NCBI GenBank assembly: GCA_020248865.1
Contig: JADCGS010000005.1
Location: 62,001-126,000, forward strand
DNA length: 64,000 bases
DNA from: Burkholderiales bacterium
GTDB lineage: Bacteria; Pseudomonadota; Gammaproteobacteria; Burkholderiales; Burkholderiaceae_F
Reading direction: 5' to 3'
Below the pieces are notes generated by a model, which saw only the letters and a program-made list of their open reading frames with translations, searched no databases and had not been told where the DNA came from. Of this stretch, positions 9,247-58,562 are shown in pieces (position 1 is the stretch's first letter; each line of letters begins with the position of its first letter). A program made the translations under genes and the position numbers.

Positions 9247-10101
9247 ATGGGGCCATTCTCATTCTACGTACTTGCCCACCTGCTCGTGGCGGCCGGCTAT
9301 CTCGGCGTGGCGTGGCACGGCTGGCGCAGCCTGACCGGGCCGACGGCCGCCGAGGCCATTGCCCCGGCCACCATCGCCGACCGCTGGCTGCTGCCGGTGC
9401 TGACCGTGGCCCATGGCGCGCTGCTGGCGCAGACCATGCTGGGCAGCGGTGACTTCCGCTTTGGGTTCGCGTTGGCGCTGTCGGCCACGCTGTGGCTCAC
9501 TGTGGCCATCCTGTGGGTGGAAACGTTCTTCGTGCCAATGCGGATGCTCTACCCGATGGTGTTGCCGGCCGCGGCGCTGGCTACCGTCTTGCCGCTGGTG
9601 TTTGACAGCGTGGCGATCGGCGCGGGAGCCGGCAACCCCGGGGCTTTCCGGCTGCATCTGCTGGTGGCGATCTTTGCGAACAGTCTGCTCACGATCGCAG
9701 CCCTGCACGCCTTGCTGATGGCAGCACTGGACCGCCGGCTGCACGCGGGTGCTGCCAGGGCGCCGGCGGGCGAGTCCGGTCTGTTCCGCCACGCGCCGCC
9801 GCTGCTGGCCATGGAGCGGTTGCTGTTCCAGATCATCGCCGCAGGTTTCGTGCTGCTGACCGCCACGGTCATCTCCGGCGTGTTCTTCTCAGAGCAACTC
9901 TTCGGCCGCGCCCTGCGCTTCGAGCACAAGACGGTGTTTGCGCTGGCCGCCTGGGTCGTTTTCGGCGGGCTTCTGCTGGGTCGCTGGGGCTTTGGCTGGC
10001 GCGGCCGGGTGGCCTTGCGATGGACGCTGATCGGCTTCGTGATGCTGCTGCTGGCCTATGTCGGCAGCCGCTTCGTCATCGAAGTGGTGCTGGGGCGTTG
10101 A
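9247..10101 (+). CDS. Inner-membrane protein, cytochrome c assembly (CcsA/HemX/YpjD) family
   Basis: A 284-residue polytopic protein with about eight hydrophobic segments, starting MGPFSFYVLAHLLVAAGYLGV. It resembles the YpjD/HemX branch of the cytochrome c assembly family, including the late KTVFALAAWVVFGGLLLGRW segment. A GTG at 9184 would extend the protein by 21 residues of non-hydrophobic sequence, so the ATG at 9247 is preferred. Family members in heme handling bind heme with histidines, but a function for YpjD has not been fixed. The adjacency to ffh in the divergent orientation is widespread in proteobacteria. Its stop overlaps the next start (TGATG). Confidence 0.82.
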   Translation: MGPFSFYVLAHLLVAAGYLGVAWHGWRSLTGPTAAEAIAPATIADRWLLPVLTVAHGALLAQTMLGSGDFRFGFALALSATLWLTVAILWVETFFVPMRMLYPMVLPAAALATVLPLVFDSVAIGAGAGNPGAFRLHLLVAIFANSLLTIAALHALLMAALDRRLHAGAARAPAGESGLFRHAPPLLAMERLLFQIIAAGFVLLTATVISGVFFSEQLFGRALRFEHKTVFALAAWVVFGGLLLGRWGFGWRGRVALRWTLIGFVMLLLAYVGSRFVIEVVLGR

Positions 10102-10385
10102 TGGGGCGGATCTTTTTTTTCTTGCTGCTGGCGCTCGCAGTCTATGTCGGCTACCGCTGGTGGCTGGCGCAGCGCCAGGCGGCGGCCCGGCGCGCCATGG
10201 ACGACGCCAGCACCGTGGAACACATGGTTCGCTGCGAAGTCTGTGGCCTGAATCTGCCCCAGTCCGAGGCGCTGTGCGAGGAGGATGCGCAGGCCGGGGG
10301 TAAGGAGGCCGGCGGCAAAGAGGCCGGGGGTGCGGCGCTTCGCTGGTACTGCGGCGAGGCGCACCGGCGGCGGCACCGGAGCTAG
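10101..10385 (+). CDS. Small membrane-anchored PP0621-type zinc-ribbon-like protein
   Basis: A 94-residue protein with one N-terminal membrane segment (MGRIFFFLLLALAVYVGYRWWL) followed by a soluble region with VRCEVCGLNLPQSEA (C45, C48) and a late WYCGEAHRRR, a cysteine/histidine arrangement fitting a small zinc-binding module. This matches a conserved proteobacterial family known as PP0621. Its start overlaps the stop of the membrane protein upstream, so the two are translationally coupled. Between the cysteine clusters is an imperfect glycine/glutamate/lysine repeat (GGKEA). Its TAG stop lies at the very end of the repeat element that follows. Function unknown. Confidence 0.75.
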   Translation: MGRIFFFLLLALAVYVGYRWWLAQRQAAARRAMDDASTVEHMVRCEVCGLNLPQSEALCEEDAQAGGKEAGGKEAGGAALRWYCGEAHRRRHRS

Positions 10386-10713
10386 CCTGAATGTTTCGTC
10401 GGATCGCCACCCCCCGCATCGCCGATTCCGCTCTGTGCGCGCAACGATCGGTGCGCGTTTCGCCGCAGCCAGTTCGGTACATCGGGGCTACGCGGGTTGG
10501 CACGAAGGGGACGCGGCCATCACGCGATCGATTGCTCGCCGATCCCTCTGGAGACCGGCTACGTCCCCGTGCCGCATGCTGCGGCCGGCAGGCCGCAGCC
10601 GCTCAGTCGGTCCGATGCGGACTTCGCGGAGGCTCGGCTTTGCCCACTCGCGAAATCTGGCTAGGGTGGGCCTGCGCGCACATCGCGCGTATCTGACGAA
10701 ATACTCGGACCAG
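10382..10713 (+). mobile_element. Degraded copy of a short inverted-repeat element (MITE-like)
   Basis: Fills the gap before pilS. The left end reads CTAGCCTGAATGTTTCGTC and the right end ctgacgaaatactcggacc, imperfect inverted repeats of each other and of the intact element at 37604-37855. Internal blocks shared with that copy are GGGGCTACGCGGGTT (10484-10498), TGCTCGCCGAT (10533-10543) and CTCGCGAAATCTGGCT (10647-10662), in the same order and orientation. It carries extra internal sequence with its own GC-rich hairpin and no transposase. The CTAG at the left end includes the stop codon of the preceding gene. Confidence 0.6.
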
Positions 10714-10714
10714 C

Positions 10715-12445
10715 ATGGATCGAACCGTGGCCATCGGCGAGCCGCTCCAGCACCTGCTTCCTCCCAGCGAGCTGTCCTGGCGCGCTCTGCAGTACTTCGC
10801 GCTGATCCGAGTGCTTTTGGCGGCCGCGCTCTTGAGCATGGCGCTCTTTGGCGGCACTGCGGCCCTGTTTGGCCTGCCCGAGCGCGGGACGGCCTCGATG
10901 CTGCTGGCAGGCAACGCCGTTTACCTGGGTCTGGCCGTGGTGCTGGCGCTGGCGGCGTTCTACGTGCGCCAGCAGATCCTCGGGCAGGTTGCTGCCCAAC
11001 TGGCAGTCGACTTAGTCCTGATCACGGCTCTGGTCCTGGGTGGCGGCGGATTGCGAGGGGGCGTCGTGGCGCTTTACCTACTGCCGCTGGCCGGCGCTTC
11101 GGTGATGCTGCCGAGCTCGGCTGCGTTCTTCGTTTGTGCGCTGATCGTGTTGGCGCTGCTGGTGGATGCCGTGCGGCAGGTGCTTTCTACGGCCGGCTCG
11201 GACTCGCTGTTGTTCCAGACGGGCCTATTCGGGGCGGCGCTGTTCGGCATCACCGCGCTCCTGCGCTTGCTGATGGCGCGCCTGGCCGAGCAGGAGCGGC
11301 TGGCGCGCCTGCGCGGCCGCGACCTCGAGAACCAGCTCGAGATCAACCGGCTCGTCATCGCCCAGATGGAGCAGGGCGTGCTTGTGGTGGATGCCAAGAC
11401 CCTGGTTCGTGCCAGCAATCTGGCAGGCCGAGTGCTGCTCGGGCTAGCACCGACCATGCAGCTGACGGGCAGGCGCCTGTCGGACTTTCCGTCGCTGGCG
11501 CCCCTGTTGGATGCCTTCCTCAAATGGCGGGCGGCCGAGTGCTCCTCCGGCGTGTGGTCCAACACGGTCATGCAGCCGAAGGCGCCGGCCGCGCAGGATG
11601 CTCGCCACCTCGGGCAGCTCGAGTTACGGGCACGCTTCGCGCGACCATCGTCGGATTCGAACGACGAGTTCGTGATTTTCCTAGAGGACGTGCGGGCGGT
11701 TCAGGAGCGTGCGCAGCAGCTAAAGCTGGCGGCCATGGGTCGGCTCACGGCCAGCATCGCGCACGAGATCCGCAACCCCCTTGCGGCCATCAGCCACGCT
11801 GGTCAGTTGCTAGCTGAAGTCAACCAGGAGCCGCTTCAGAAGCGCTTGTCCGGCATCGTGCGCGAGAACACGCAGCGCCTGAATCGCCTGGTCGATGACG
11901 TGCTGCGAGTGGCGCGTCGCGAGGCTCCGATGGGCGATTCGATCACGCCTGCGATCTTCGTCCGCCAGTGGCTCGATGAGTTCGTGCGCGACCGCAGCCT
12001 GGTCGCCGGCCGCATCGTGCTGAATGCCGAGCCTCGGCTGGTGGTCAAGTTCGAGCCGTCGCACTTGCGGCAGGTGCTGTTCAACCTGGTCGACAACGCG
12101 CTGCGCTACGCCTCGCCGAAGGCCGGGGCGGTCGAGATCCTGGTGGAGCGCGCCGCCGACGACGGCGGCCGTATCAAGCTGTGGGTCTTGGACGACGGGC
12201 CGGGCCTGACACCCGAGGTGCTTGGCGCGCTGTTCGAGCCCTTCATGACCACCCATGCGCGCGGTACCGGGCTCGGCCTGTTCCTGGCGCGCGAGTTCTG
12301 CTTAGCCAACCGCTGCGACCTCAGCTACGCAACCCGGCGCCACTTGGACGGTAGCGCACGCGAGGGTTTCGTTTTGACTTTCGCGCGCGCCGCGGGCAGT
12401 GCGGTCGAGGACCTCGGCTTCCTGGACACGATTCCGACTCAATGA
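10715..12445 (+). CDS. pilS: PilS-type sensor histidine kinase
   Basis: A 576-residue kinase with an N-terminal set of about six membrane segments (residues 25-190), a PAS-like region (about 210-310), the dimerisation/phosphoacceptor helix SIAHEIRNPLAAISHAGQLL with His350, and a catalytic ATPase domain with the N-box FNLVDNALRYA, DDGPGL and GTGLGLFLAREF. The polytopic N-terminus and pairing with a sigma-54 regulator match PilS of the PilS-PilR system, which controls type IV pilin transcription. Its stop overlaps the pilR start by four bases. Pilus genes are not in this window, so the target is inferred. Confidence 0.88.
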   Translation: MDRTVAIGEPLQHLLPPSELSWRALQYFALIRVLLAAALLSMALFGGTAALFGLPERGTASMLLAGNAVYLGLAVVLALAAFYVRQQILGQVAAQLAVDLVLITALVLGGGGLRGGVVALYLLPLAGASVMLPSSAAFFVCALIVLALLVDAVRQVLSTAGSDSLLFQTGLFGAALFGITALLRLLMARLAEQERLARLRGRDLENQLEINRLVIAQMEQGVLVVDAKTLVRASNLAGRVLLGLAPTMQLTGRRLSDFPSLAPLLDAFLKWRAAECSSGVWSNTVMQPKAPAAQDARHLGQLELRARFARPSSDSNDEFVIFLEDVRAVQERAQQLKLAAMGRLTASIAHEIRNPLAAISHAGQLLAEVNQEPLQKRLSGIVRENTQRLNRLVDDVLRVARREAPMGDSITPAIFVRQWLDEFVRDRSLVAGRIVLNAEPRLVVKFEPSHLRQVLFNLVDNALRYASPKAGAVEILVERAADDGGRIKLWVLDDGPGLTPEVLGALFEPFMTTHARGTGLGLFLAREFCLANRCDLSYATRRHLDGSAREGFVLTFARAAGSAVEDLGFLDTIPTQ

Positions 12446-13974
12446 GCGACACTGACACCGACCGCACTCCGATCGAGGCGCCGCGCCGCCTGCCAGTCGC
12501 GCTTGTCATCGACGACGAGGCCGACCTGCGCGAGTTGCTGTCGCTGACACTGGTTCGGCTCGGCCTGGATGTGGACAGCGCTGATTCAATGGCGCAAGCG
12601 CGCGAACGGCTTGCGCGAAAGCGCTACAACCTGGCCTTAACCGACATGCGGCTGCCCGATGGAGTTGGCCTCGATTTGGTACGCGAAGTTGCACAGGGTC
12701 AGTACCGTGAACCGATTCCGATCGTGGTGATCACCGCCTTCGGTAGCCCCGAAAACGCGGTCGCCGCGCTGAAGGCCGGAGCCTTCGACTACCTCACCAA
12801 GCCGGTAGACCTCGAGCAGCTGCGGCTGGTGGTGCGCTCGGCCCTGAAGTCTGGGCACGAGACGCTGGTCGGCGGTACGCCGCTGCCGGCGTTCAGCCGC
12901 CTGCAGGGCGCCAGTCCCGCGATGCAGCAGTTGCGGGCTTTGATCGACAAGCTGGCGCGCAGCATGGCGCCGGTGGCCATCCGGGGCGAGTCTGGCAGCG
13001 GCAAGGAGCTGGTTGCGCGCGCGATCCACGAGTTGTCGTCACGCGCGGGCGGACCGTTCGTGGCGGTCAATTGCGGCGCGATTCCTGAAACGTTGATGGA
13101 GGCCGAGTTCTTCGGCTATCGCAAGGGCGCATTCACGGGTGCCGATCGCGACCGTGGCGGCTTCTTCCAGGCTGCTGCCGGCGGCACGTTGTTTCTGGAC
13201 GAGGTGGCCGAGCTGCCGCTGGCCATGCAGGTCAAGCTGCTGCGTGCAATCCAGGAGCGGCGCGTGCGTAAGGTGGGTGCAACCGCTGAGGAGCCGGTCG
13301 ACGTACGGCTCCTGAGCGCCACCCACCAGGACCTTGCCAAGCAAGTGGTGGCGGGACGCTTTCGCCAGGATCTGTACTACCGGCTCAACGTGATTGAGCT
13401 GCGTGTGCCCAGCCTTCGCGAGCGCGCCGAGGACATCCCGCTGATTGCCGAGTATCTGCTACATCGCCTGGCCGAGCGAGTCGACGGCAAGCCGGCGCGG
13501 CTGTCACCCGAGGCTCTTGCCGCGCTACAGCGGCATCCCTTTCCGGGCAATGTGCGCGAGTTGGAGAATGTGCTGGAACGAGCGCTGGCGCTGGCTGCGG
13601 CAGACGAGTTGCAGCCGCTGGACCTGATGCTGCCGCAAGCGGAGATCGACCTGTTGCTTGAGCCCGAGGACCTGGATTCCACGGTGGCCGCACGCGAATC
13701 TGGCGCCGACGCGGACGCTGCTGCTGCCGCCGGATTGACTGAGGCGGCGGCAGCCGAATGGGCGGACGATCGCGGCGCGGCAGCGCCGGCCCCGACCTTC
13801 AGCGTGGTCGATGGTGTGCCCAACGACCTGCAGGCCTACCTGGATGCGCTCGAGCGCGAGGCGATCCGCGCCGCCGTGGCCCGCACGCGCAACAACCGCA
13901 CCGCAGCGGCGCAGTTGCTGGGCCTCACCTTCCGCCAGTTGCGCTACCGGATGCAGCGGCTCGGACTGAGGTGA
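12442..13974 (+). CDS. pilR: PilR-type sigma-54-dependent response regulator
   Basis: A 510-residue NtrC-family activator. The receiver domain (about 18-135) has the acidic pair DDE and phosphoacceptor Asp68 in ALTDMRLPDG. The AAA+ domain has GESGSGKELVARAIHE (Walker A) and GAFTGAD, the loop contacting sigma-54, plus GGTLFLDEVAELP (Walker B). A Fis-type helix-turn-helix ends the protein (RTRNNRTAAAQLLGLTFRQLRYRM). Between AAA+ and HTH is an alanine/glutamate-rich linker of about 60 residues, longer than usual. Coupled to pilS; probably activates sigma-54 promoters of type IV pilin genes. Confidence 0.9.
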   Translation: MSDTDTDRTPIEAPRRLPVALVIDDEADLRELLSLTLVRLGLDVDSADSMAQARERLARKRYNLALTDMRLPDGVGLDLVREVAQGQYREPIPIVVITAFGSPENAVAALKAGAFDYLTKPVDLEQLRLVVRSALKSGHETLVGGTPLPAFSRLQGASPAMQQLRALIDKLARSMAPVAIRGESGSGKELVARAIHELSSRAGGPFVAVNCGAIPETLMEAEFFGYRKGAFTGADRDRGGFFQAAAGGTLFLDEVAELPLAMQVKLLRAIQERRVRKVGATAEEPVDVRLLSATHQDLAKQVVAGRFRQDLYYRLNVIELRVPSLRERAEDIPLIAEYLLHRLAERVDGKPARLSPEALAALQRHPFPGNVRELENVLERALALAAADELQPLDLMLPQAEIDLLLEPEDLDSTVAARESGADADAAAAAGLTEAAAAEWADDRGAAAPAPTFSVVDGVPNDLQAYLDALEREAIRAAVARTRNNRTAAAQLLGLTFRQLRYRMQRLGLR

Positions 13975-53586: not shown

Positions 53587-54597
53587 ATGACGATCAAGGT
53601 AGCCATCAACGGATACGGCCGCATCGGCCGCAACGTGCTGCGCGCGCACTACGAGGGCGGCAAGCGCCACGACATCCAGATCGTGGCGGTCAATGATCTG
53701 GGCGACCCGAAGACCAACGCCCACCTCACCAAGTACGACACCGCGCACGGCCCGTTCCCCGGAACGGTGAGCGTCGATGGCGACACCATGGTGGTCAACG
53801 GCGACCGTATCCGCGTGCTGGCCCACCGCAACCCGGCCGAGTTGCCGTGGGGCGAGCTCGGCGTGGACGTCGTGATGGAGTGCACCGGCTTGTTCACCTC
53901 CAAGGAGAAGGCCGCGGCGCACCTGAAGGGCGGCGCCGGCAAGGTCATCATCTCCGCGCCCGGCGGCAAGGATGTCGATGCGACCGTCGTCTACGGCGTC
54001 AACCACGGCACGCTGAAGGCTGCGCACACGGTCATCTCCAACGCCAGTTGCACCACCAACTGCCTGGCGCCGCTGGTCAAGCCGCTGCACGAGAAGATCG
54101 GCCTGGTCAACGGCCTGATGACCACCATCCACGCCTACACCAACGATCAGGTCCTGACCGACGTCTATCACGAGGACCTGCGCCGCGCGCGCAGCGCCAC
54201 CCAGTCGATGATCCCGACCAAGACTGGTGCGGCCGCCGCGGTGGGTCTGGTGCTGCCCGAGCTGAACGGCCGGCTCGACGGCTACGCGATCCGCGTGCCC
54301 ACCATCAACGTGTCGATCGTCGACCTGTCGTTCATCGCTGCCCGCGACACCACGGTGGAGGAGGTCAACGGCATCCTCAAGGCGGCGGCTGAGGGTGAGC
54401 TCAAGGGCATTCTCGGCTACAACACCGAGCCGCTGGTGTCGGTGGACTTCAACCACAACCCGCTGTCGTCGGTGTTCGACGCCACCCTGACCAAGGTCAG
54501 CGGCCGGCTGGTCAAGGTGTCGAGCTGGTACGACAACGAGTGGGGGTTTTCCAACCGGATGCTGGACACCGCCGTCGCGCTGATGGCGGCCCGGTAG
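53587..54597 (+). CDS. gap: Glyceraldehyde-3-phosphate dehydrogenase
   Basis: A 336-residue NAD(P)-dependent enzyme. [20 protein letters not shown] (nucleotide binding), [18 protein letters not shown] with the catalytic cysteine, and [18 protein letters not shown] are diagnostic. Central step of glycolysis or gluconeogenesis. Part of the tkt-gap-(protease-rrtA)-pgk-pyk-fba block. Ribosome-binding site is GCAGGCAGAC-like and weak. Confidence 0.97.
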
Positions 54598-54761: not shown

Positions 54762-56510
54762 ATGACGACCCGCCGCCTCGTTGCTCTGCTCGGTACTGCC
54801 GGCGCCCTGGCCGGCGCCGCTGCAGCGCAGGCCCCGGCCATCAAGAGCCCGCCGGCGCAGCCGGTGCTGGTGGGGCAGATGATCGTCAAGCTGCGCGCGG
54901 CCGGCGTCGATAGCGACCGCGTGAGCGGCATGAGCGCCGAGCGCGCCCGGCGTCTGTCGAGTGCGGTCGGTCGGTCGTTGACGCCGCTGCGCGCCATGTC
55001 GGGCGAGGCCGCCGTGTTGCGCCTGGCGCAGCCGCTCGCCGCGGCCGATGCGCAGCAACTGGCGCAGGCGCTGGCGCGCGACCCGGCCGTCGAGTGGGCC
55101 GCGCCCGACCTGCCGGTCAAGCGGCTGCAGTCTTCGCCGCCCGACGCCAATTTCCCGACGCGCCAGTGGAACTTCCTGCCTGCCAACGCGCAGTTCGTCT
55201 CGGCCAGCCTGGTCACGCCCGCCAGTACGGTGAACTTCTCGGCCACCGGTGGGGCCAACGGGCCGCTCGCATGGTCCATCACGCGCGGCAGTGCCGCGGT
55301 GCGCGTGGCGGTGATCGACACGGGGGTGCATCTGAGCCACCCGGACCTGGTGGCCAACCTGCTGCCGGGCTTCGACTTCATCTCGGCCGATGCGCTGGCG
55401 GTGGCGCCGTTCAACGCGCCGCTGAACTTCGTCGCCAACGACGGCAACGGCCGTGACCCCGATGCGGGCGATCCCGGCGACTGGGTCACGGCCGAGGAAG
55501 CGGCCGCCTATCCCGGTCTGTGCGGCGCGGCCGACATCGGGCCGTCGACCTGGCACGGCACCTCGATGGCCGGGCTGATCGCGGCGCTGTGGACTGCCGC
55601 CAACCCCAACCCGCCCGGCACCTCCCTCGCCGGTCTGGCGCCCGAGGTGCGGATCGTGCCGGTGCGGGCGCTGGGCAAGTGCGGCGGCACCACCTCCGAC
55701 GTGATCGACGCCATCCGCTGGTCCGCCGGCCTGGCCGTGCCCGGCGTACCGCTCAACCCCAACCCGGCGCGCCTCATCAGCCTGAGCCTCGGCACCGCGG
55801 CCGGCGCGTGCAACGCGGCCTACCAGAGCGCGGTCAACGACGTGCTGGCTGCCGGTGCCGTCGTGGTGGCTGCCAGCGGCAACGACGCCGCCAATGCAGT
55901 GAGCCAGCCCGCCAACTGTGCGGGAGTGATTGGTGTCACCGCACACGCGATCAACGGCGATAACGCCAGCTACGCCAACATCGGGCCCGAAGCCGCGCTC
56001 AGCGCGCCCGGCGGCGGTCGCCCGTCGCTCGCGGCGCTGGCGTCGCTCGATGCCGACCAGACCGCGTACTACGTTTGGGCGCCGTCCCTGTTCGGCGCCA
56101 CCACGCCGGCGAGCGCAGCCGGCAGCGGCGATGCGCGCAGCGGCCCGGCCACCGGCGGACTCACTGGCACCAGTGCCGCGGCGGCACAGGTCGCGGCGGC
56201 GGCGGCGCTGCTGTGGTCGGTCGATCCGTCGCTGGCGGGCCCGCAACTGCGCGCCTTCCTCACCAGCACGGCGCGGGCGCATCCGGCAGCCGGTTACTGC
56301 GCCACCGAGCCGACCGCGCAGAACCGTTGCGGCGCCGGCCTGCTCGACGCCGGCGCGGCCGTCGACGCGGTGTATCGGGCGCAACAGCAGCAGCGCCGCG
56401 GCGATGGCGGCGGCGGTGCCCTGCCGCTGGCGGCGCTGCTGCTCGTGCCGCTGCTGGGCGCCGCAGGCCGGCTGCGCCGCGCATCAGCCGGCGACGCGCT
56501 GTCCTCATGA
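54762..56510 (+). CDS. Subtilisin-family (S8) protease with GlyGly-CTERM tail
   Basis: A 582-residue secreted protease. A signal peptide (LVALLGTAGALAGAAAAQA) and a propeptide-like region (about 25-120) precede the S8 domain with Asp186 in VAVIDTGVHLSHPDL, His265 in STWHGTSMAGLIAA and Ser471 in GLTGTSAAAAQVAAAAALLW; the oxyanion Asn lies in VVAASGNDAANAV. The C-terminus from residue 549 reads GGGGALPLAALLLVPLLGAAGRLRRAS: glycine-rich motif, hydrophobic helix, arginine cluster, the pattern of GlyGly-CTERM sorting signals cleaved by rhombosortase. The adjacent convergent gene encodes a rhombosortase. Two cysteines (CGAADI and AGACNA) may form a disulfide. Confidence 0.92.
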   Translation: MTTRRLVALLGTAGALAGAAAAQAPAIKSPPAQPVLVGQMIVKLRAAGVDSDRVSGMSAERARRLSSAVGRSLTPLRAMSGEAAVLRLAQPLAAADAQQLAQALARDPAVEWAAPDLPVKRLQSSPPDANFPTRQWNFLPANAQFVSASLVTPASTVNFSATGGANGPLAWSITRGSAAVRVAVIDTGVHLSHPDLVANLLPGFDFISADALAVAPFNAPLNFVANDGNGRDPDAGDPGDWVTAEEAAAYPGLCGAADIGPSTWHGTSMAGLIAALWTAANPNPPGTSLAGLAPEVRIVPVRALGKCGGTTSDVIDAIRWSAGLAVPGVPLNPNPARLISLSLGTAAGACNAAYQSAVNDVLAAGAVVVAASGNDAANAVSQPANCAGVIGVTAHAINGDNASYANIGPEAALSAPGGGRPSLAALASLDADQTAYYVWAPSLFGATTPASAAGSGDARSGPATGGLTGTSAAAAQVAAAAALLWSVDPSLAGPQLRAFLTSTARAHPAAGYCATEPTAQNRCGAGLLDAGAAVDAVYRAQQQQRRGDGGGGALPLAALLLVPLLGAAGRLRRASAGDALSS

Positions 56511-56511
56511 G

Positions 56512-57129
56512 TTAGTTCCTTGCGTGGGTCACGGGCTCGCGCGGCCCGGCCCATGCAAACAGCAGGCCGAGCATGCTGCCGGCCACCGCGCCGGCCAGGT
56601 GCGCCTGCGGCACGATGCCGGCGCCGAGCCACTGCGCATACGGCGTCAGGCTGCCGCCGGGCTGCTCGGCCAGCACCTTGACCCAGCCGCCGGCCACCAG
56701 CACGGCAGGCAACCACAGCGCGCGCGGGCGTCGTTCTCCGTCGGTCAGCAGCGCCAGCAGCCAGGCGGTGGCGCCGGCAAAGAAGACGCCGTGCAGCGTG
56801 CCCGAGAAGCCGCGGTACCACGCGATGCCCGGATGCAGCAGCGCCAGGTGCAGCGTGACGGCCAGCGCCGCCACCGCCAGCACCAGTGGCTGGCGCCAGG
56901 TGCGCAGCTCGGGGGCGAACAGCCGCGCGACCACGAGCCACGCCGCGAGGTTGAGCAGCGCATGGACCCAGTTGACGTGCACCAGATGCGCGGTCAGCGT
57001 CCGCCACGGCTGGCTCGCCACCAGGGCCTGGCGATACTCGAGCGCGCCGTGCAGCGGGACGAGGGCCTGCACGAGCAGTACCAGCGCTGCGCCGCCGAGA
57101 GCCTGCCGTTCCGCCACCGAGAGCTGCAT
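56512..57129 (-). CDS. rrtA: Rhombosortase (intramembrane rhomboid-like protease)
   Basis: A 205-residue membrane protein with about six helices. [15 protein letters not shown] carries the rhomboid H-x-N set (His48, His51, His56, Asn60), [17 protein letters not shown] the catalytic Ser109, and [17 protein letters not shown] the catalytic His177. This matches rhombosortase, the rhomboid subfamily that processes GlyGly-CTERM proteins. It converges with the protease gene with only one base between stops and so is its probable partner. The ATG at 57129 gives a start before the first helix; a longer reading at 57336 lacks support. Confidence 0.9.
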
Positions 57130-57359: not shown

Positions 57360-58562
57360 ATGCAGGTCAAGACGCTCGCCCAGCTGGCTGCCGCCGGCCG
57401 CCTCGCGGGCCGCCGGGTCTTCATCCGCTCCGACCTCAACGTGCCGCAGGACGCCGCCGGCAATATCACCGAGGACACGCGCATCCGCGCCTCGGTGCCG
57501 GCCATCGAACTGGCGCTGTCGGCCGGCGCCGCGGTGATGGTGACCTCGCATCTGGGCCGGCCGGCCGAGGGCGAATTCCGGCCCGCGGACTCGCTGGCGC
57601 CGGTGGCGCAGCGCCTGTCGCAGCTGCTGGGGCGCCCGGTGCCGCTGGTGCGCGACTGGATCGATGGCGTGCCGGTGGCGCCCGGCGAAGTCGTGCTGCT
57701 GGAGAACTGCCGCGTCAACAAGGGCGAGAAGAACAACAGCGACGAGCTGGCCCGCAAGATGGCAGCGCTGTGCGACGTCTACGTCAACGACGCGTTCGGC
57801 ACTGCGCACCGCGCCGAGGCCACCACGCACGGCATGGCCAAGTTCGCGCCGGTGGCCTGCGCCGGGCCGCTGCTGGCGGCCGAGATCGAGGCGCTGGGCA
57901 AGGCGCTCGGCGCGCCGAAGCGGCCGCTGGTGGCGATCGTGGCCGGCGCCAAGGTCTCGACCAAGCTCACCATCCTGAACAACCTGGCGGCCCGGGTCGA
58001 CCAGCTGATCGTCGGCGGCGGCATCGCCAACACCTTCCTGCTGGCGCAAGACGTGCCGATCGGCAAGTCGCTCGCCGAGCCGGACCTCGTGCCCGAGTGC
58101 CGCAAGATCATGGGGACGCTGGCGGCCAAGGGGGGCACGCTGCCGCTGCCGATCGACGTCGTGGTGGCCCGCGAGTTCAAGGCCGACGCGGTGCCGCGCG
58201 TCTGCGCTGCCGGCGACGTGCATCCGGACGAAATGATCCTCGACATCGGACCGTCGAGCGCGCTGGCGCTGGTGCACCTGCTGCGCGAGGCCGGCACCAT
58301 CGTCTGGAACGGCCCGATCGGCGTGTTCGAGTTCGACGCCTTTGCCGAGGGCACCCGGCAGATGGCGCTGGCCATCGCGGGGGCGACTGCCGACGGTGCC
58401 TTCTCGATTGCCGGCGGCGGCGACACGCTGGCCGCCATTGCCAAGTACCACGTCGCCGACCGCATCAGCTACATCTCCACCGGCGGCGGCGCCTTCCTCG
58501 AATTCCTCGAAGGCCGCATGCTGCCGGCCATCGAGGTGCTGCAGCAGCGCGCCCGGGACTGA
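57360..58562 (+). CDS. pgk: Phosphoglycerate kinase
   Basis: A 400-residue kinase interconverting 1,3-bisphosphoglycerate and 3-phosphoglycerate with [63 protein letters not shown] and the late [14 protein letters not shown] with [14 protein letters not shown] are diagnostic. The ATG at 57360 starts [20 protein letters not shown]; a longer reading from 57129 has no family support. pyk follows by two bases. Confidence 0.97.

Follow-up and report, generated by a model that had tools for sequence, protein, structure and literature searches.

The pairing of a protease with a rhombosortase has been known since 2011, when Haft and Varghese reported that, of 21 genomes with a single target, 16 had the rhombosortase and target genes side by side (PMC3237569). 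As set out in the parts of that paper used here, rhombosortases carry the motifs SGxxH (with the catalytic Ser, and with His in place of Tyr205 of GlpG), AHxxGxxxG and WRxxS/T, GlyGly-CTERM tails extend zero to five residues beyond their helix, and the tail model TIGR03501 is, by the account of its own authors, unable to find all true members (PMC3237569). For VesB of Vibrio cholerae, tail cleavage, a glycerophosphoethanolamine-containing moiety, the type II secretion system (T2SS) and a surface location have been described (PMC6219818; PMC13393428). The pair considered here lies in a window of 64,000 nucleotides (the whole stretch of DNA analysed; GenBank assembly GCA_020248865.1, contig JADCGS010000005.1, positions 62,001 to 126,000) from a Burkholderiales bacterium. 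It is largely ordinary and is conserved in a subset of Burkholderiales.

The first gene of the pair (54762-56510, plus strand, closing with a TGA stop at 56508-56510 in the list of open reading frames) encodes a predicted secreted subtilisin-like (S8) protease of 582 residues, as assigned by PF00082 (138 bits), its translation and an alignment of the catalytic triad. The protein is laid out as a putative signal peptide, a propeptide-like region, the S8 domain (residues 179-526) and a C-terminal sorting tail; its N-terminus, MTTRRLVALLGTAGALAGAAAAQA, is signal-peptide-like as read by eye. Alignment with 25 homologues finds the triad Asp, His and Ser and the oxyanion Asn intact (VIDTGV, WHGT, ASGND and GTS), and all four residues are invariant across the 26 aligned S8 sequences. 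The earlier note had remarked on the placement of the active-site serine in GTSAAAAQVA as unusual. The motif is indeed present, but its unusualness reflects variation within the clade, and several relatives also have Ala at the usual Pro position after Ser (GTSPAAAQVS, GTSSAAAHVA and GTSPAAAQVA). Because the Ser is retained and relatives whose triad is complete also show Ala for Pro, we read GTSAAAAQVA as a clade variant and rule it out as the mark of an inactive protease.

The second gene (56512-57129, minus strand) encodes a rhombosortase of 205 residues that scores 118 bits with TIGR03902 against a cut-off of 84, which bears out the initial recognition of rhombosortase motifs in the convergent neighbour. 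Those motifs, WRTLT, GFSGTLH (Ser109 and His113) and AHLAGAVAG (His177), fall in invariant alignment columns. A whole-genome profile search returned a single copy over the TIGR03902 cut-off; two further candidates, at C4:117974 (39 bits) and C18:71546 (29 bits), score far below it and were taken as ordinary rhomboids. A scan of the contigs of the collection with the window rhombosortase as a single sequence gave no match, and an alignment-based scan gave matches. The rhombosortase stop is a TAA (56512-56514), and a single base lies between it and the protease stop, exactly as first described. This closeness is not special, however, since in 25 convergent S8/rhombosortase pairs the spacing of the 3' ends varies between an overlap of 67 bp and a gap of 53 bp, with overlap in 19 of them. 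Nor do the close stops show co-expression, because convergent genes are not one transcript and form no operon.

The protease ends (56400-56507, plus strand) in a GlyGly-CTERM-type tail, GDGGGGALPLAALLLVPLLGAAGRLRR followed by ASAGDALSS, and its C-terminus reads GDGGGGALPLAALLLVPLLGAAGRLRRASAGDALSS. The glycine-rich motif, hydrophobic helix and arginine cluster that had been noticed in the letters are all seen, the glycine-rich motif being free of Cys, and the tail is homologous to clear examples in relatives. Relatives with the same gene arrangement carry plain GlyGly-CTERM tails, for example SGGGGGGGALPLWQLLLLAAFGLAARIRSRS. The family models for the two partners gave a divided answer: TIGR03902 matched the rhombosortase, whereas TIGR03501 (cut-off 15.5 bits) gave no match to the window protease even at E<=10, and the protease is absent from the TIGR03501 matches in the genome. 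The nine residues that follow the last Arg also count against reading this as a GlyGly-CTERM tail. We then have the result of profile A3, made from 14 tails of relatives with the window's own sequence left out. This profile ranks the window protease first in a search of the whole genome (E 6.6e-4) and again among the C-termini of 545 open reading frames in the window (E 2.5e-6; runner-up 0.19). Judged from its sequence, the tail is not a chance resemblance despite the TIGR03501 miss, and the gene pair is a GlyGly-CTERM-type protease beside its rhombosortase.

Sortase and tail co-occur within the family. Tail profile A1 matches all 12 family genomes with the rhombosortase locus (one gene is truncated), as well as Limnobacter litoralis, and none of the nine searched family genomes that lack an over-cut-off rhombosortase, a test of co-distribution that is partly circular because most profile rows come from genomes scored positive. 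In G093, a genome of another family, the pair is present, yet A1 misses its tail.

The earlier note had described a system of one protease and one sortase. The sortase side stands, in that a search for other GlyGly-CTERM tails and sortases found no second rhombosortase over the cut-off; the client side probably does not, as profile searches of the window's genome (94.8% complete) revealed one further probable tail. It belongs to a cytochrome c/choice-of-anchor-D protein of 273 residues with a CxxCH haem motif (G000:C4:99581-100399, G000 being the window's genome), whose choice-of-anchor-D domain scores 46 bits versus 45 with NF012200. With TIGR03501 this tail reaches 17.8 bits in the genome search, above the cut-off, and 13.9 bits, below it, in hmmscan; the relatives-only profile A3 matches it weakly (E 0.3). 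A second TIGR03501 match in the genome, C1:8258 (13.3 bits), is below the cut-off and was judged from the list of open reading frames not to be a protein C-terminus.

The weaker of these scores, together with the adjacency that is typical of single-target genomes (PMC3237569), would fit a strictly dedicated pair, in which the sortase processes the neighbouring protease alone and the tail of the cytochrome protein does no more than hold that protein in the membrane. We regard such dedication as rather unlikely, given the score above the cut-off in the genome search and the related cytochrome proteins of G001, G002 and G019, which likewise end in a glycine run, a hydrophobic helix and a basic cluster. 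The cytochrome c/choice-of-anchor-D protein is, in our assessment, probably a second client of the rhombosortase. Its gene stands beside that of a PhoX phosphatase in G000, G002 (L129) and G019 (L130); in L041 the tailed cytochrome gene occupies 9579-10400 and the PhoX gene 10432-12741. A further suggestion, which we put forward as doubtful, is that the rhombosortase anchors two clients as unlike as the neighbouring protease and a PhoX-adjacent cytochrome protein, that the redox protein would be displayed at the surface, and that selection would keep the tail-to-tail overlap between client tail and sortase.

The pair is embedded in a glycolytic block with the gene order tkt, gap, S8 and rhombosortase, pgk, pyk and fba. 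Its reported position is confirmed by the neighbouring genes, gap upstream (type I glyceraldehyde-3-phosphate dehydrogenase, 53587-54597, plus strand; TIGR01534, 426 bits) and pgk downstream (phosphoglycerate kinase, 57360-58562, plus strand; assigned by translation and synteny). The earlier statement that gap and pgk are close in related species is also borne out: in the 17 family genomes without an over-cut-off rhombosortase in which both genes stand on one contig, they are 55-1077 bp apart, with neither protease nor rhombosortase between them. This proximity in members lacking the pair is what would be expected if horizontal transfer had recently brought the pair into the gap-pgk interval of this lineage, and the G+C content of the pair (0.73-0.77) is somewhat above that of gap (0.66-0.69). 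However, pgk, directly after the pair, also has a G+C content of 0.71-0.735, and none of the plasmids in the collection encodes a match.

The distribution of the block bears on the same question. The S8/rhombosortase pair occupies this locus in 12 of 37 sampled family genomes (G000-G036), which represent seven genera, although the gene in G019 is truncated. Among these 12 genomes gap lies alongside in 10 (the contig of G004 ends first, and G025 yielded no gap gene), while the other side is flanked by pgk in 11 (the contig of G019 ends first). The protease is duplicated in G019 and G030, and at three loci (L038, L040 and L050) tandem S8 proteases, each with its own GlyGly-CTERM tail, share one rhombosortase and adjoin gap, pgk or both. 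The same block is found in eight Limnobacter or Limnobacter-like contigs, in one of which, L083, the pair adjoins pgk, with gap absent from the stretch examined. It is also found in G093, and spans the family and two other families. The insertion is not present throughout the order, whereas the earlier note had named an order-wide presence as what would refute its reading: in a draw of 300 genomes of the order, 16 have a rhombosortase over the cut-off, with two more just below, and three of these 18 have it at gap-pgk (G000, G039 and G093).

Rhombosortase identity correlates with the identity of gap and pgk (r=0.84, Mantel p 0.0002, 13 taxa), and in a tree of gap and pgk the pair carriers within the family form one clade. 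Because the block is conserved, the identities correlate and the carriers form a single clade, the local insertion suggested at first is refuted for this genome, and we consider recent transfer in this lineage very improbable. We favour instead, with high confidence as part of the overall model given below, a pair that has long resided in the gap-pgk interval of this clade, passed on for the most part by vertical descent, with losses in some members. G014, a close family member nested among the carriers, has no pair and a gap-pgk distance of about 250 bp (L128, G014:C57); the absence looks like a clean loss. The spread over three families may reflect one origin with losses, or transfer, and such transfer could have happened when the clade arose or have gone from one family to another.

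We propose a model, very likely in our view as a whole, in which the N-terminal signal peptide would export the protease and the C-terminal helix would hold it in the inner membrane with the Arg cluster inside. The adjoining rhombosortase, an intramembrane serine protease, would cleave within the tail, at its run of glycines, and a phospholipid-derived anchor would then be attached to the C-terminus so formed. The T2SS, whose secretin is encoded in the window's genome (TIGR02517, 590 bits against a cut-off of 351), would carry the protein to the outer surface, where it would serve as a surface protease. Cleavage of the tail, C-terminal modification or anchoring and surface location are predicted for the window protease by analogy with VesB of V. 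cholerae, and we infer that the enzyme is active. The rhombosortase would probably serve at least one more protein, the cytochrome c/choice-of-anchor-D protein encoded elsewhere, and the pair itself would be old and vertically inherited. Ordinary rhomboids release their substrates, and the rhombosortase might by the same token set the protease free in soluble form, with no exchange of tail for anchor. We think this improbable, as the characterised rhombosortase system keeps its client at the cell surface (PMC6219818; PMC13393428), and retain the exchange of tail for anchor.

A conserved genome address makes divergent members of such a system easy to find even where the tail or the sortase falls below model cut-offs. 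Limnobacter sp. MED105 appears in the 2011 listing, in the part used here, with a target and no rhombosortase (PMC3237569). Through the conserved gap-pgk address we found a predicted rhombosortase beside an S8 gene in this strain (NZ_ABCT01000013.1; L079, 8001-8489) that scores just below the TIGR03902 cut-off (81.4 bits against 84), and the listing is corrected in this respect. Experiments on rhombosortase substrate choice would also be well served by small natural systems that have just one or two clients.

Compared with known systems, the window protease resembles the GlyGly-CTERM form of the MprA protease (TIGR03867, NCBIfam), likewise a member of the S8 proteases that ends in a GlyGly-CTERM tail. 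The TIGR03867 model (cut-off 19.7 bits) gave no match to the window protease at E<=10; a rhombosortase-adjacent S8 protease of G318, in the same order, matches this tail model with 37 bits. VesB is trypsin-like and not an S8 subtilase. VesB and RssP of V. cholerae nonetheless offer a GlyGly-CTERM serine protease processed by a rhombosortase in a T2SS-bearing bacterium, and the window's genome likewise encodes a secretin; unlike that genome, V. cholerae pairs a single RssP with six GlyGly-CTERM proteins (PMC13393428). The rhombotarget lipoprotein (TIGR04179) and its rhombosortase also form adjacent single pairs in the order, found in five sampled genomes (G100, G145, G182, G241 and G268), but these pairs have a lipoprotein as client, and their two genes run in the same direction, not convergently. 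This co-directional arrangement is seen at L111, L114, L116, L119 and L121, in other families of the order. Similar in organisation are the pairs described by Haft and Varghese in Ralstonia, Cupriavidus, Marinobacter and Anaeromyxobacter, in which the rhombosortase lies beside its target as in the window. The gap-pgk location is not mentioned in the parts of the 2011 paper used here, and the window's genome probably differs in having a second, distant client. With this pair, an uncultured Burkholderiales clade joins the known rhombosortase systems.
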